45,124 nt of DNA. Source: Sulfurimonas sp. GTDB lineage: Bacteria > Campylobacterota > Campylobacteria > Campylobacterales > Sulfurimonadaceae. The notes beneath the pieces were generated by a model. It ran no database searches, had not been told where the DNA came from, and was given only the letters and a program-made list of their open reading frames with translations. The DNA lies in the NCBI GenBank assembly GCA_002899765.1, contig PPDH01000017.1, positions 1 through 45,124 on the forward strand, read 5' to 3'. Positions 24,973 to 34,803 of this stretch are shown here, piece by piece (within the stretch, counting starts at the first letter, position 1; each line of letters starts with the position of its first letter). Both the position numbers and the translations under genes were made by a program.

Positions 24973-25057
24973 TGGTGCGATCGGAGAGATTTGAACTCTC
25001 ACACCCGTAAGGCACTACCCCCTCAAGGTAGCGTGTCTACCGTTCCACCACGATCGC
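24973..25057 (-). tRNA. tRNA-Leu (anticodon GAG)
   Basis: On the minus strand an 85-base class II tRNA folds with a seven-pair acceptor stem (GCGATCG with CGATCGC), discriminator A and an encoded CCA end. The anticodon stem CTACC/GGTAG encloses loop TTGAGGG, so the anticodon is GAG (leucine, CUC/CUU). A variable arm of leucine type and a T stem GAGAG/CTCTC with loop TTCAAAT are present. It follows the atpE terminator on the same strand. Confidence 0.96.
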
Positions 25058-28404: not shown

Positions 28405-30579
28405 TTAATTTGTCTCCGATTTATCAGGTAGTCTATAGACAAATCCCGACAATCTGCCTTGGTCTTTCATAATCGGTTTAAGTCTGATTACCAGATATAC
28501 AAATCTGTCATATACAGAGTCTGAGAGTCCATTTTGGTTAAGAATAGGTCTGTTGTTTTCAACATAAGTAAGTCCAAAGTCCCAACATCTTTTTTTATAT
28601 AAAAATCCCACTTCAAAGCTCTTTTTTTCACTTCTCTCTAAATCATAGTCAAGTCTAAAATGGTAAGAGTAGTGTTTGTCATACTTATAGGCTATACTTG
28701 AAGTCATATAGCTTGTAATAGGTGTGTACGTAGCAGTTGGTACCAAAAAACTATCTTTGTACATGTGAGACAATCCTACATTTAAGTTCTCTGTATTGTA
28801 CGATATTTTGTTGAAATTTTTAGAAAAAGTATTCTCGTCATAGTTATAAAACATATTGTTATAAAAATTGATACTATCGGTAATCTGGTAGTTAAGCTCG
28901 TTCTCAAGTTCACCCGCTCCTCCACCGATCTCTTTATAAGAGATATTTTGTGCCAGCCTGTGATAAAGTATCTGATTTCCGGAAATATCATAGAGATAGT
29001 GAGAGAAATAGAGCTGTAGATTCTCCTCTATCTCTATAATATTGTAAAATTAACAAATCGGTTGTGATTGATTTGCTTTTACAGAGCAGTAATCCTTTTG
29101 CTCATCATAGTAACCGTTTTCATACTCCAAGCCTGCTACCTGATACTTTGCTCCAAAATCTACGACATGCGTCACTTCTTCATAAGCACGTGTTAACTGA
29201 GTAGACAATGAGAGGTTATGATAATTTCTTGCATATATTCCACTCTCATAATTATTTGTTGAAGGAGTTTTTTCTTCGCCTTTAAACCCCGTATGTTGTG
29301 CATAAAGGCTAGCTTCATAAGAGAGATTTAAAGTCTCATCAAAAAACGATTTTTGAAAAGCTAAAGGAATATTTATATCAGTTTGAACCGCACTCTTTCC
29401 AATCTCTCTATAATAGTTGTTACTTTTAATATCTAAGCTGTACAGAAAATGATCGTCTAGCAATGTATCTAAATAACTATGATAGTGAAGTGCAGGAAGG
29501 TTTTGAAGTGTCTCTTTATTACTGTCGAGAGTTAAATTTTTATAATGTTTAAAATATGCTCCGAAATAGTCCTCATCCGTATTGTAAAAAAGATTTACTC
29601 TTGAGAGAAGTTGTGTAGCGGTAGCATTTTTTGTAGTATCATTTGTCGAGAGGTTGATGTAATCGACATCATTCATATTGACAATATCGGCATAAAGAGC
29701 TGACTGACCTTCAAAACTTGTGCCAAACCACTCATTTATTACATCACTGTTTTCATATAGAAAATCAAAGCCGTAATGCTTTTTATTTGCCAACTCATTT
29801 TCAAGAAAATATTTCTCTTTTTCTTTAAAATAACCCGCACTTAAAGAGCCTTTTGAAACTTTTGAGTCTATAAATCTGAGTGTAGTGTAAAGTCCTGAAC
29901 CGCGATTTGTTCGTATTTGAGGTTTAACCTCAAGATCCCACCAGTTTTGTTCAGCTATATAAAGCGCCTGTTCGTAGTAAAGCCCCTCTTTTGAAGAAAG
30001 ACCCACCATAGGAGGCAAGAGACCGCTTCTTCTCTTTGTATCTAGCGAATACCCGAAATATGGCGTATAAAATACAGGAATATCATATATATAAATCCTA
30101 GCATTATAGAGGTTTAGCCACATCGTATCCGTGTTATAGTACGATGACGTAAACTCCATTTTCCATATAGGATTATTTGGGTCACATCCGCTTGTAACTC
30201 CGGTCTCAACATCTACTTGAGTATCCTTTGCATAAGAACCTTCACCGCTAATCCATACATCTGCTGTTTGTTCCTGCATGTAAAAGGGTTTAAATGTTCT
30301 CTCTTTGTTCGCTATATTTAGTTTTGCGTACTCTCCAAGAAACTTAATACTTTCGCCTTTATTTGCTCTAATATTTCCAAAAAGTTCAAGCTCTGCGTTG
30401 TTTCTATCATACACAGCTTTTTTTGCACGCAGATAATAGTCTTGATAAATGACAACAACTTCTCCATCAGCTATTACGATATTATCTTTTGTATCCATAC
30501 TCGTTGCATAAACTTCAACCTTGTCATTGCCAATAATGCCGGTAGCAAAAATGGTTAAAAGAAGGAGCAGCTTAAACAT
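28405..30579 (-). pseudogene. lptD: LPS-assembly protein LptD, one in-frame stop
   Basis: An outer-membrane LPS translocon protein of 725 codons: signal peptide (residues 1-17), OstA/LptA-like beta-jellyroll (about 20-110, EVYATSMDTKDNIVIADGEV), then the barrel with YTPYFGYSLDTKRRSGLLPP, a strongly conserved motif, and ending in repeated beta strands to SGFVYRLPDKSETN. TAA at 29050-29052 (codon 510) interrupts after NQSQPIC; the frame then runs on as FYNIIEIEENLQLYFSHYLY through 28405 with no shift. Glu or another residue one step from TAA would restore it. LptD is essential where LPS is made, so a real truncation would be hard to tolerate. It overlaps the RDD gene by eight bases. Confidence 0.88.
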
Positions 30580-31032: not shown

Positions 31033-32298
31033 TTAAAGCGCTTGATAGGCTATGTCTGTTCTGAGTTTTTTACCTGCAAAATGAACCTGTCCGCATCTCA
31101 TGTATGCTCTGTCTCTTGCCTGCTTTATACTCTCTCCGATACCGACACAAACCAAAACTCTCCCGCCATCTGCGTACAATATACCATCAATCATGCTTAC
31201 ACCCGCATAAGAGATATGTGTATACTTCTCAATCTCTTCATGATGTACATCATCAATTATAATTTCAGCCGGTGTTGAACTTGAGTAGGGATAGTTTGCG
31301 CTTGCCATAACTACGCCTACTGCATATTGGTTTGAAAACTCTACTTTTATTTCGCCGAGTCTGTTTGTAGCAGCTTTATAAAACATATCGCTTACGCTTG
31401 AAGTCATAAGCGGCATAAGAATTTCACACTAAGGGTCTCCAAAACGAACATTGAACTCCAGAGTAATAGGCTCGCCGTTTACAACCATAATCCCGATAAA
31501 AAGAACACCCTCAAAAGGTGCGAGCTCTTTTTTCATTCCATCAAGCGTAGGACGGATTATCCTCTGCTTTACTTTTTCATAAAGTGCTTCATCAACTAAA
31601 GGAGTAGGAGCATAAGCACCCATTCCCCCCGTATTTGGTCCCTCATCGTTATCTTTAAGTCTTTTATGGTCTTGCGCGGCAGGAAGCAAAATATAGTCAT
31701 CTCCGTCACAAACGGCGAACATGGAGAGCTCATAACCATCTAAAAACTCTTCTACTACGACTTTATGTCCTGCATCGCCAAAGCTTTTTCCGCTTAACAT
31801 CTCAGATATCGCAACTTTTGCCTCATCATGATTTTGCGCGATTATAACGCCTTTACCGCCGCAGAGTCCATCTGCTTTGACAACGATTGGAGCAGTTAGG
31901 GTATCTGAAAATTTAAAAGCATCCTCAATTGAAGCCGTCTCAATGTAGCGCGCTGTAGGGATATTATACTTTGCCAAAAAGTTCTTCATGTAGACTTTTG
32001 AACCCTCAAGCTGAGCCGCTTCTTTGCTTGGTCCAAAAATAGTAAGTCCTAGTGATTTAAAAATATCGACAACTCCGTCTACTAGCGGGGCTTCAGGACC
32101 GACAATAGTCAAATCAATACCACTCTCTTTTGCATAAGCAGCTAAATCGTTATAATCTTTAATGTTTAGATTTGTTCCCAAGGAGCTTGTTGCACCGTTT
32201 CCGGGCATAAAAAAAAGTTCATGAACCTCTTCTTCGTTTAATATTGCTCTGGCAATAGAGTACTCTCTGCCACCGCTGCCCAAAATTAAAATTTTCAT
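31033..32298 (-). pseudogene. purD: Phosphoribosylamine-glycine ligase PurD, one in-frame stop
   Basis: The second enzyme of purine synthesis, joining glycine to phosphoribosylamine, with 422 codons. The ATG at 32298 follows [19 protein letters not shown], the ATP-grasp segments [16 protein letters not shown] and [17 protein letters not shown], and FNVRFGDP are intact. TAG at 31429-31431 (codon 290) replaces the near-invariant Glu of RFGDPE, a Mg/ATP ligand region; GAG to TAG is one G-to-T step. Translation then resumes CEILMPLMTSSV in the same frame to the normal end. As written the protein would lack the C-terminal domain and be inactive. A 6S RNA candidate lies directly upstream. Confidence 0.92.
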
Positions 32299-32371
32299 CA
32301 ACACTCCATAAATAAGTTAAAAAATATCTGCTCAATCTATCAAAATAGACTAAACATATATCTCTGTTAAA

Positions 32372-32570
32372 GCAGCCCGGACAGCCGTCTCGCATTTGGC
32401 TTGGTTCTAAAAGCCGAATTTGGGCGAAGAGAGTATTTTATAACGGCGGCATTGTCTCGACAGAGTTAACGTATCTCAAACGACAACACCGACACACAAA
32501 AATCCTACGTGTTCGCTACTTGAAAATGTAGAACCCTCATTGGTGCGGTTTCTCGAACTATCCAGACTAC
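32372..32570 (-). ncRNA. ssrS: Candidate 6S RNA (ssrS)
   Basis: This 309-base stretch between hemD and purD contains no ORF but a structured RNA on the minus strand. The 5' segment GTAGTCTGGATAG pairs with the 3' segment CTGTCCGGGCTGC over 13 consecutive pairs (including G-U), closing a transcript of about 199 bases. Inside, arms GTTCTAC and GTAGCGAAC form a side hairpin, and CGGCTT pairs with AAGCC near the 3' side. A perfect TATAAT box lies eight to thirteen bases before the 5' end. Length, closed long-stem shape and, from memory, location next to purD in Campylobacterota all fit 6S RNA, the regulator that binds housekeeping RNA polymerase. The 3' end is not certain, as no strong T-run follows. 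Confidence 0.72.
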
Positions 32571-32577
32571 TTATATG

Positions 32578-32583
32578 ATTATA
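32578..32583 (-). promoter_or_regulatory. -10 box of the 6S RNA candidate
   Basis: A perfect TATAAT on the minus strand, preceded by eight A/T bases (TTTTTTTG) and placed at the right distance from the predicted 5' end at about 32570. No clear -35 box, as is usual in this phylum. It could also drive purD by read-through past the RNA. Confidence 0.6.
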
Positions 32584-32607
32584 CAAAAAAAATTCTTGAA
32601 TTTTCTT

Positions 32608-33243
32608 TTAAAGGCTCAGTGCAAGCTCGATACAGCTCTCTATTGATGTTTTTTCACTGATTATATATTTTATACCCTCTGGCAAACTTTTTGCAGTTGT
32701 CGTACCTATAACTATGATTTTGGCATCAGGGTGTATAGAGTTGTTTTTCAAAAAGCACTCTACCGATGAGGGAGATGTAAAAATCAGAGTAGAATCATCA
32801 TTTACTCTTGTATCCAGAATCTCTTTTGAACACTCACTTACATAAAGAATTTCATAATCTATTTTATACCCCTCATCTTGACTTCTTTTAACAAAATCAG
32901 AGGCTATAAGCTCAGCTCTTAGATAGAGCCATTTTGTCTCTTTGGGAAACTCTTTTATATTTTTAGCAAGATTATCCCCATATCCGTCGCCGACTGCCAA
33001 AACTATGCCGCCAAACTCTTTATAGGCAACTGCAGTCTTTATAGAAACACAAAGTGCAGGAATATTTATAAAATCTTTTTTATCATGCTGCTCCAGTGCT
33101 TTTACGGTCTGTTTGGATGTAATGATAAGATGGTCGTATTTTGAAAAATCGATATCAGGTTTCAAATACCTGACATCTAAAGATTTAACATTGATTGCAT
33201 ATTTGCTTTTAGAAGTAGCAAAAAGATAGATTTTTTTTGTCAT
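32608..33243 (-). CDS. hemD: Uroporphyrinogen-III synthase
   Basis: A 211-residue protein of the HemD fold, a weakly conserved family. Supporting points are KYDHLIITSKQTVKALEQ near residues 37-54, ALCVSIKTAVAYKEFGG and VGDGYGDNLAKNI in the middle, WLYLRAELIASDFVKR, and LIFTSPSSVECFLKNN with KIIVIGTTTAKSLPEG in the C-terminal half. The last two are the best family signature. HemD closes hydroxymethylbilane to uroporphyrinogen III for haem and sirohaem. It follows guaA after nine bases. Confidence 0.85.
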   Translation of the reverse strand: MTKKIYLFATSKSKYAINVKSLDVRYLKPDIDFSKYDHLIITSKQTVKALEQHDKKDFINIPALCVSIKTAVAYKEFGGIVLAVGDGYGDNLAKNIKEFPKETKWLYLRAELIASDFVKRSQDEGYKIDYEILYVSECSKEILDTRVNDDSTLIFTSPSSVECFLKNNSIHPDAKIIVIGTTTAKSLPEGIKYIISEKTSIESCIELALSL

Positions 33244-33252
33244 ATCCTTAAA

Positions 33253-34803
33253 TTATTCCCACTCTATTGTAGCAGGCGGTTTAGAAGATATGTCGTATAC
33301 TACACGGTTTATGCCATCAACTTCATTTATAATTCTTCTGCTTATTCTCTCTAATAAATCATGCGGAAGATGAGCAAATGTAGCCGTCATTCCATCAACA
33401 GCTTCAACAACTCTAACACAAACAGTATTGTCGTACGTACGGTTATCGCCCATAACACCGACTGATTTTACGTTTAGTAAAACAACGAATGCCTGCCATG
33501 TTTTAGCATAATACCCGCTCGCTTTTAACTCATCTAACAAAATAACATCAGCTTCTCTAAGAAGGGTCAAATCAGCTTCATTTACATCACCCATGATACG
33601 TATTGCAAGCCCTGGTCCAGGGAATGGATGACGGTTAATCATTGATTCGGGAAGTCCTAATTCTAAACCGATTTTTCTCACTTCATCTTTAAAGAGCTCA
33701 CGAAGAGGTTCTATAAGTTGAAAATCCATCCAATCAGGAAGCCCGCCTACGTTGTGGTGCGATTTTATAACCTCAGAAGGGCCGTTTACAGAGATTGATT
33801 CAATAACGTCAGGGTAAAGAGTACCTTGAGCCAAAAATTTAATGCCGTCATGCTTTTTTGCCTCTTTTTCAAACTCTTCGATAAAAGTATGCCCTATAAT
33901 CTGACGTTTCTTCTCAGGATCGCTTACTCCTGCAAGTTTGCTTAAAAAGTTCTCTCTTGCATCTACTACAACCAAAGGAACTTTTAGGTTGATTTTAAAA
34001 ACCTCTTCAACCTGTTCTCTCTCGCCTTTGCGCAAAAGTCCGTTATCAACAAAAACCGGAACCAGCTGATCTCCGATTGCTTCATAAAGCATCGCCGCGA
34101 CAACAGAACTGTCAACGCCTCCGCTTAATCCGCAAAGAACTTTTCCGTTGCCCACTTTTTCGCGAATAATTTTAATCTGCTCTTTTAAAAAGTGTTCCAT
34201 CTTCCATTTTTCTGTGACCCCGCAAATATTTTTTGCAAAGTTACGAAGCATCAAATAACCCTCTTCAGAGTGTTGGACTTCAGGATGGTACTGCATTGCG
34301 TATATTCGCTTTTGTTCATTTGCAACCGCAGCGTAAGGAGAGTTTGCAGATGTTGCGATAGGTTCAAATCCCTCAGGCAGAACATCAACCTTATCGCTGT
34401 GACTCATCCAGACTACTCTTTCATCGTCACAATCTTTTAAAAGCGGTGAGCAGTTCTCACCTGCATTTATTATCTTGAGTTCAGCTTTTCCGTACTCATG
34501 ATGACTTGCTCTGATAACGCTTCCGCCAAAGTCAACCGCAATTCTCTGCATGCCATAACAGATACCAAGAACAGGAATGCCCATATTGTAAACACCCTGA
34601 TCTACCTGATATGCGTCTTTGCTGTATACTGAAGATGGACCGCCGCTTAGGATAATTCCTTTTGGATTTTTTGCTTTAATATCCTCCACGCTGACATGAT
34701 AAGGAAGAATCTCACAATAGATTTTATCTTCACGCAGGCGGCGAGCTATAAGCTGAGTATACTGAGAGCCAAAATCTAAAACTATGATGCTGACATTTGT
34801 CAT
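33253..34803 (-). CDS. guaA: GMP synthase (glutamine-hydrolysing)
   Basis: A 516-residue two-domain GMP synthase. The class I amidotransferase domain has the nucleophile C82 in [10 protein letters not shown] and the catalytic His-Glu in [13 protein letters not shown]. The synthetase domain has the ATP pyrophosphatase P-loop [15 protein letters not shown], and the C-terminal dimerisation domain ends [17 protein letters not shown], the invariant GuaA terminus. It aminates XMP to GMP. An AAAGG ribosome site precedes the ATG. All motifs are intact. Confidence 0.97.

Follow-up and report, generated by a model that had tools for sequence, protein, structure and literature searches.

On the minus strand of the window (by which we mean the whole 45,124-nt stretch of Sulfurimonas DNA analysed here) the genes run in the order guaA, hemD, RNA, purD, the RNA being a predicted transcript of ~199 nt that a preliminary description of this DNA had put forward as a 6S RNA. 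The gene downstream of the RNA is identified as purD by Pfam GARS_N and GARS_A, and guaA, which had been described as nearby, does lie beyond hemD on the same strand, where it is recognized by Pfam GATase and GMP_synt_C. The features of the locus are as follows.

31429–32298, minus strand: purD, 5′ part; starts 73 nt past the 13-pair stem, with an in-frame stop after residue 289
32370–32386, minus strand: closing stem, 3′ strand (32372–32384 in the preliminary description)
32373–32571, minus strand: predicted 6S RNA, ~199 nt; both ends (5′ ~32571, 3′ ~32373) inferred from the spacing of the −10 box and the closing stem
32375–32508, minus strand: match to Rfam RF01069 ‘purD RNA’, covering the apical arm, the 3′ hairpin and the 3′ strand of the closing stem
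32397–32416, minus strand: hairpin GGCTT/AAGCC on the 3′ side of the central bubble, its loop with TAGAACC at 32409–32403; from the RF01069 alignment
32529–32535, minus strand: GGTTCTA, complement of the 3′ hairpin loop, on the 5′ side of the central bubble; covarying, with mixed controls
32556–32572, minus strand: closing stem, 5′ strand; 17 pairs in total, of which 13 (32558–32570) were described previously
32578–32583, minus strand: TATAAT, −10 box of the predicted 6S promoter, from exact sequence and conservation among relatives
32608–33243, minus strand: hemD (uroporphyrinogen-III synthase; Pfam HEM4), directly upstream of the RNA
33253–34803, minus strand: guaA (GMP synthase)

The gapless 13-pair stem on which the preliminary description was built is present as claimed, GTAGTCTGGATAG (32570–32558) pairing with CTGTCCGGGCTGC (32384–32372) on the minus strand with four G-U pairs, and it extends to 17 pairs (32572–32556 with 32386–32370). 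At least 13 ungapped end pairs were found in 16 of 20,000 random 203-nt stretches of the window; the candidate has 17. The perfect TATAAT (32583–32578) likewise stands at the right distance, placing the predicted start at ~32571, and the predicted span from there to 32373 is 199 nt, the transcript length given earlier. Between purD and hemD we found no ORF among those of at least 60 aa, in agreement with the statement that the gap has none. As a single sequence the RNA folds with −61 kcal/mol (z −2.18, equalled by 6 of 200 shuffles), a modest value taken alone, and a sigma70 scan returned three sites (shuffle mean 1.8) that do not include the TATAAT at 32583–32578, presumably for want of an accompanying −35 match.

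We note that purD of the window is split by a single in-frame stop after residue 289, with the C-terminal part continuing in the same frame at 31033–31416 on the minus strand (TIGR00877 match); the gene is intact at 421 aa in relatives (L113, L114, L122 and L186), and the window copy is 97% identical over 289 residues to purD of a Sulfurimonas metagenome-assembled genome. The stop may be a sequencing error or a real mutation. Elsewhere on the minus strand of the window lie an LptD-like ORF (29050–30579; NF002997, 77.2 bits, below cut-off), followed by a 149-aa ORF with no NCBIfam match (28405–28854) that is possibly the remainder of the LptD-like gene, which would make that gene the second to be interrupted in the draft contig, and a tRNA-Leu (GAG; 24973–25057), the sole tRNA that ARAGORN finds in the window.

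Covariation of the stems and conservation of the promoter

Lack of conservation of the stem in relatives had been named as an observation that would speak against a 6S RNA. We aligned the window with 40 relatives, picked to spread over genera among the stronger matches, those listed with positions (281 other genomes matched), using MAFFT, which yields an alignment not fitted to any structure. The closing stem is kept and covaries across these 41 genomes: its 17 pairs are standard in 80.3% of cases versus 32–50% when the two strands are slid against each other, the covariation score is 0.42 versus 0.11–0.19, and 12 of the 17 pairs have changes on both sides. None of 500 shuffles reached the observed percentage paired, covariation score or number of cells with two-sided changes; less clear are the number of pairs with two-sided changes, which was equalled in 7 of 500 shuffles, and the number of pair types, equalled in 39. 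Over the inner nine pairs (columns 15–23), 366 of 369 cells hold a standard pair; the outermost positions are often unpaired. RNAalifold, run unconstrained, recovered the closing stem together with the apical arm (39 pairs, 30 of them with a two-sided change in at least one sequence); neither the 3′ hairpin nor a helix between bubble and hairpin appears in this consensus of the 41 sequences. For 16 further sequences outside the alignment, found with a full-length model (R1) that itself favours paired ends, the end-to-end helix sum is 367; 300 partner swaps averaged 270 and reached at most 315.

The −10 box is conserved along with the stem. In 39 of the 41 genomes an exact TATAAT precedes the stem’s CCTG by no more than 40 nt, and in 38 (the exceptions being L043, L049 and L064) the distance is 6–12 nt, against a background of 100 in 8000 random 14-nt slots.

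A further pairing is suggested within the central bubble, where GGTTCTA (32535–32529) on the 5′ side complements the TAGAACC (32409–32403) of the 3′ hairpin loop; in relatives the two segments read GGTCC/GGGCC, GGTCC/GGACC and AGTCT/AGGCT. When the register was left free, the score of this helix over the 41 sequences was 585, above the maxima of 562 in 200 partner swaps and 517 in 200 shuffles of the 3′ side, with another helix scoring best in L057, L058 and L062 and a shifted register in L045 and L068. In the MAFFT columns the outcome is mixed. The percentage paired, covariation score and two-sided-change cells beat 500 of 500 shuffles, and the number of pairs with two-sided changes was equalled in 196 and the number of pair types in 344; the helix is 80.8% paired with a covariation score of 0.283, where a slide of −1 gives 68.2% and 0.269 and a slide of +1 gives more two-sided-change cells (20 versus 17). 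We think that a one-base misalignment of one group accounts for part of this mixed result, and that the covarying pairing of the 5′ bubble strand with the 3′ hairpin is likely real, judging from these sequence comparisons. Our searches of open-licence papers found none on this pair in the group, which is weak evidence of its newness.

Taken together, the element shows structural and promoter features of the 6S class, namely a covarying rod of ~200 nt with a closing stem, an open central bubble and an apical arm and, at the level of sequence, a promoter of its own for the housekeeping polymerase.

Rfam classification and distribution across the phylum

Among 4227 Rfam families, RF01069 (‘purD RNA’) alone exceeds its cut-off anywhere in the window, scoring 84.1 bits (E 9.5e-15; cut-off 41), so the RNA is a member of that family; two snoRNA matches on the plus strand, far below cut-off, were discarded as chance. 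The check proposed in the preliminary description, a search with the Rfam 6S model RF00013, came out negative, with no match in the stretch 32250–32700 at E values up to 10 and none in the whole genome. The RNA is thus not a member of RF00013, for which the library threshold is 46.4 bits, and is filed as RF01069. At that cut-off RF00013 was found in none of 298 genomes of the phylum (the filters used lose some weak matches) and in 4 of 14 control genomes, including those of E. coli and B. subtilis. Below the cut-off, full-length matches to RF00013 (positions 1–187) occur in 6 of the 298 genomes at 29.4–38.2 bits, and all six places coincide with an RF01069 match, the one in L091 scoring just below the RF01069 cut-off. 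These full-length matches, at the same place in six relatives, support the 6S assignment.

The RF01069 model, typed Cis-reg, has 125 positions and starts 63 nt downstream of the predicted 5′ end of the RNA. It does not include the 5′ strand of the closing stem, and it shows the 3′ strand as unpaired because the partner strand lies outside the model. Matches to RF01069 (E ≤ 0.001) are present in 282 of the 298 phylum genomes, one apiece, 271 of them above cut-off, and in none of the 14 control genomes. The full-length model R1, built from the 41-sequence alignment, was used to search the 16 genomes without an RF01069 match, the window’s own genome and G207. It matches the window at 32576–32368 with 168.3 bits (the window being one of the 41 model sequences) and finds the RNA in 15 of the 16 genomes that RF01069 missed (E 9.2e-7 to 5.4e-21), so that by one model or the other the RNA is present in 297 of 298 genomes.

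The sole genome with a match to neither model, G174, carries a remnant between hemD and purD (~1360–1505 of record L077) in which the promoter and 5′ arm resemble those of its sister G165; the remainder gives no convincing alignment, and the element is probably a decayed or rebuilt copy.

These results bear on annotation. With the Rfam 6S model at its cut-off, no 6S RNA would be annotated in any of the 298 phylum genomes sampled, and with RF01069 a 6S gene would be labelled a purD cis-element. The full-length model and copies of the RNA detached from purD help to resolve this conflict of labels.

Linkage to purD and the role of the RNA

We examined the position of purD in 89 genomes, comprising the window, L001–L030 (the best-scoring matches, all of genus g14), L031–L070 (with one shared genome counted once), four genomes from the RF00013 search and 15 from the R1 search. 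purD lies downstream of the RNA on the same strand in 84 of the 89, of which 30 come from one genus; L059, where purD is ~570 nt downstream, was counted as linked. The five others carry the RNA without an adjacent purD, as would be expected for 6S as a stand-alone gene. Four of them (G006, G028, G040 and G224) belong to group f5, in which linkage was examined in the four of seven genomes that have no RF01069 match; here the RNA follows guaA-hemD, with a single RNA match per genome, and purD is found at a distance above 100 kb or on a different contig. In the fifth, G186 (L036/L193), counted as not adjacent, the RNA and purD are separated by an ORF of 362 aa or more on the opposite strand; purD lies ~1.8 kb downstream and is preceded by an exact TATAAT, as seen in L136, evidently the same record. 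A count from the side of purD, not independent of the first because the loci partly overlap the phylum genomes, gave an R1 match at 74 of 80 purD loci of named records (mostly Sulfurimonas), every one upstream of purD; of the remaining six, L170 and L179 end at a contig edge, and L115, L122, L136 and L184 have other upstream sequence. The preliminary description had seen in this linkage a tie between control of RNA polymerase and purine synthesis. The linkage itself is common, and it is dispensable; any coupling of the two would be conjectural.

Could the inverted repeat have arisen by chance and have no function? The modest score of the single-sequence fold agrees with that, and the idea is refuted by the covariation in 41 genomes and by conservation to the extent of matches in 297 of 298, leaving it a negligible probability. 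That the RNA is instead a purine-responsive leader, a riboswitch controlling purD, is what the Rfam name and Cis-reg type imply; the frequency of a same-strand purD downstream (84 of 89 genomes, 30 of the 89 being from one genus) and the short gap between RF01069 match and purD, 14–26 nt in all 30 of L001–L030, agree with it. Against it, the obligate position ahead of purD that a cis-regulator would call for is missing in the four f5 genomes, each with its single RNA match after guaA-hemD, and in G186 with its intervening opposite-strand gene; one strand of the conserved closing stem, the 5′ one, lies outside RF01069; and the C. jejuni counterpart is made as a separate transcript of 185 nt and has a pRNA, according to the available part of PMC3847290. 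Since the RNA is kept where purD is not beside it, we argue that it is a gene of its own, and we rejected a purine riboswitch as the main reading, considering it very improbable. A cis role is possible where purD is linked (84 of 89 genomes), and a purine sensor accounts for the evidence less well than shared transcription does.

Shared transcription would be an addition to the assignment as 6S RNA and not a replacement for it: the 6S gene would also serve as the 5′ leader of purD, and expression of purD would depend on the 6S promoter as well as on read-through or processing. Where no RNA lies directly upstream, an exact TATAAT is found within 100 nt before purD in all eight genes (L115, L122, L136, L184 and L072–L075), and in linked loci it is found in the spacer between RNA and purD in 10 of 74 (Fisher p 1.2e-6 at face value, or 0.0007 or 0.02 if the eight represent four or two events); the window spacer has none. 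These figures are to be read with the caveats that relatives are not independent, that the slot searched, 100 nt, exceeds the spacers in length (median 69 nt), that promoters may lack an exact TATAAT or sit inside the 6S gene, and that L115, L122 and L184 may carry the RNA elsewhere in the genome. The 14–26-nt gap in L001–L030, all of one genus, leaves little room for a promoter, a terminator scan around the window RNA found no terminator-like site, and a run of six T near the 3′ end of the RNA occurs in 6 of the 74 linked loci. The scarcity of TATAAT in the spacer, the short gaps and the lack of a terminator-like site in the scan suggest that transcription from the 6S promoter may run on into linked purD genes, and that the free 6S RNA would then arise by processing or pausing. 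We put the chances of this addition at about even. The promoter pattern offers a testable case of a 6S promoter that also serves purD. In open-licence papers we found no report of purD read-through in this group, which is weak evidence that the idea is new.

The assignment as 6S RNA is supported by the covarying closing and apical stems, the conserved −10 box and persistence without an adjacent purD, and it agrees with the report of the C. jejuni and H. pylori orthologues as 6S RNAs with pRNA (available part of PMC3847290). We therefore conclude with high confidence that the RNA is the 6S RNA of a Sulfurimonas-type bacterium, encoded by a separate gene and not an obligate purD sensor. It would act as follows. 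The sigma70-type promoter with its TATAAT would start a minus-strand transcript of ~199 nt that folds into a rod with a closing stem, an open bubble and an apical arm. By analogy with the established 6S mechanism, the rod would imitate an open promoter and bind sigma70 RNA polymerase, until synthesis of a short pRNA by the polymerase, with the 5′ side of the bubble as template, sets it free; pairing of the 3′ bubble-side hairpin with the 5′ side could plausibly help refolding or release. In linked genomes purD would probably also be transcribed through the 6S gene, processing separating the two. The combined picture for Campylobacterota, in which the 6S gene doubles as purD leader from one promoter, processing sets the balance between the two products, a purine-synthesis enzyme is thereby tied to production of an RNA that polymerase lets go in a nucleotide-dependent way, and release may use a bubble-hairpin helix particular to the group, is speculative, and we regard it as rather unlikely to hold as a whole.

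Comparison with known 6S RNAs

The RNA upstream of purD is already known as a 6S RNA in this bacterial group. According to the available part of PMC3847290 (2013), the RNA ahead of purD in C. jejuni is transcribed as 185 nt and adopts a 6S-like fold, with a closing stem, a central bubble and a 13-nt antisense pRNA, a shorter version of it having been proposed earlier as a purine riboswitch, and the region upstream of purD in H. pylori carries a 6S RNA with two pRNAs. The accessible portions of other papers count 6S among housekeeping RNAs of C. jejuni that are not conserved in sequence outside Campylobacter (PMC3656092), list it in H. pylori (PMC8322730) and report a notably high proportion of 6S in C. 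jejuni (PMC8172932). The word purD is absent from the main text of Weinberg 2010 (PMC2864571). Like the C. jejuni and H. pylori RNAs, as far as the text available to us describes them, the Sulfurimonas RNA lies directly upstream of purD and shares their size class, sigma70 promoter, stem, bubble and apical part; it differs from that of C. jejuni in its length, ~199 nt predicted from sequence versus 185 nt, the C. jejuni pRNA having been detected.

With E. coli ssrS (RF00013) and B. subtilis 6S-1 the RNA has the rod architecture in common, and its closing stem shares GUUCG...CGGC with ssrS, whereas its score falls below the cut-off of the ssrS family. Applied to 1.2 kb of E. coli K-12, R1 gave its best match, a weak one of 10.7 bits, at 479–669, compared with the annotated ssrS at 484–666. 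For B. subtilis 6S-1, the available part of PMC8876501 describes how the 3′ side of the bubble forms a hairpin and how release is aided by a bubble-collapse helix. In that collapse helix the 5′ bubble pairs with the 3′ strand of P2, whereas the candidate partner in the Sulfurimonas RNA is the 3′ hairpin; by analogy, we infer that the bubble-hairpin pair may have a role similar to that of the collapse helix.
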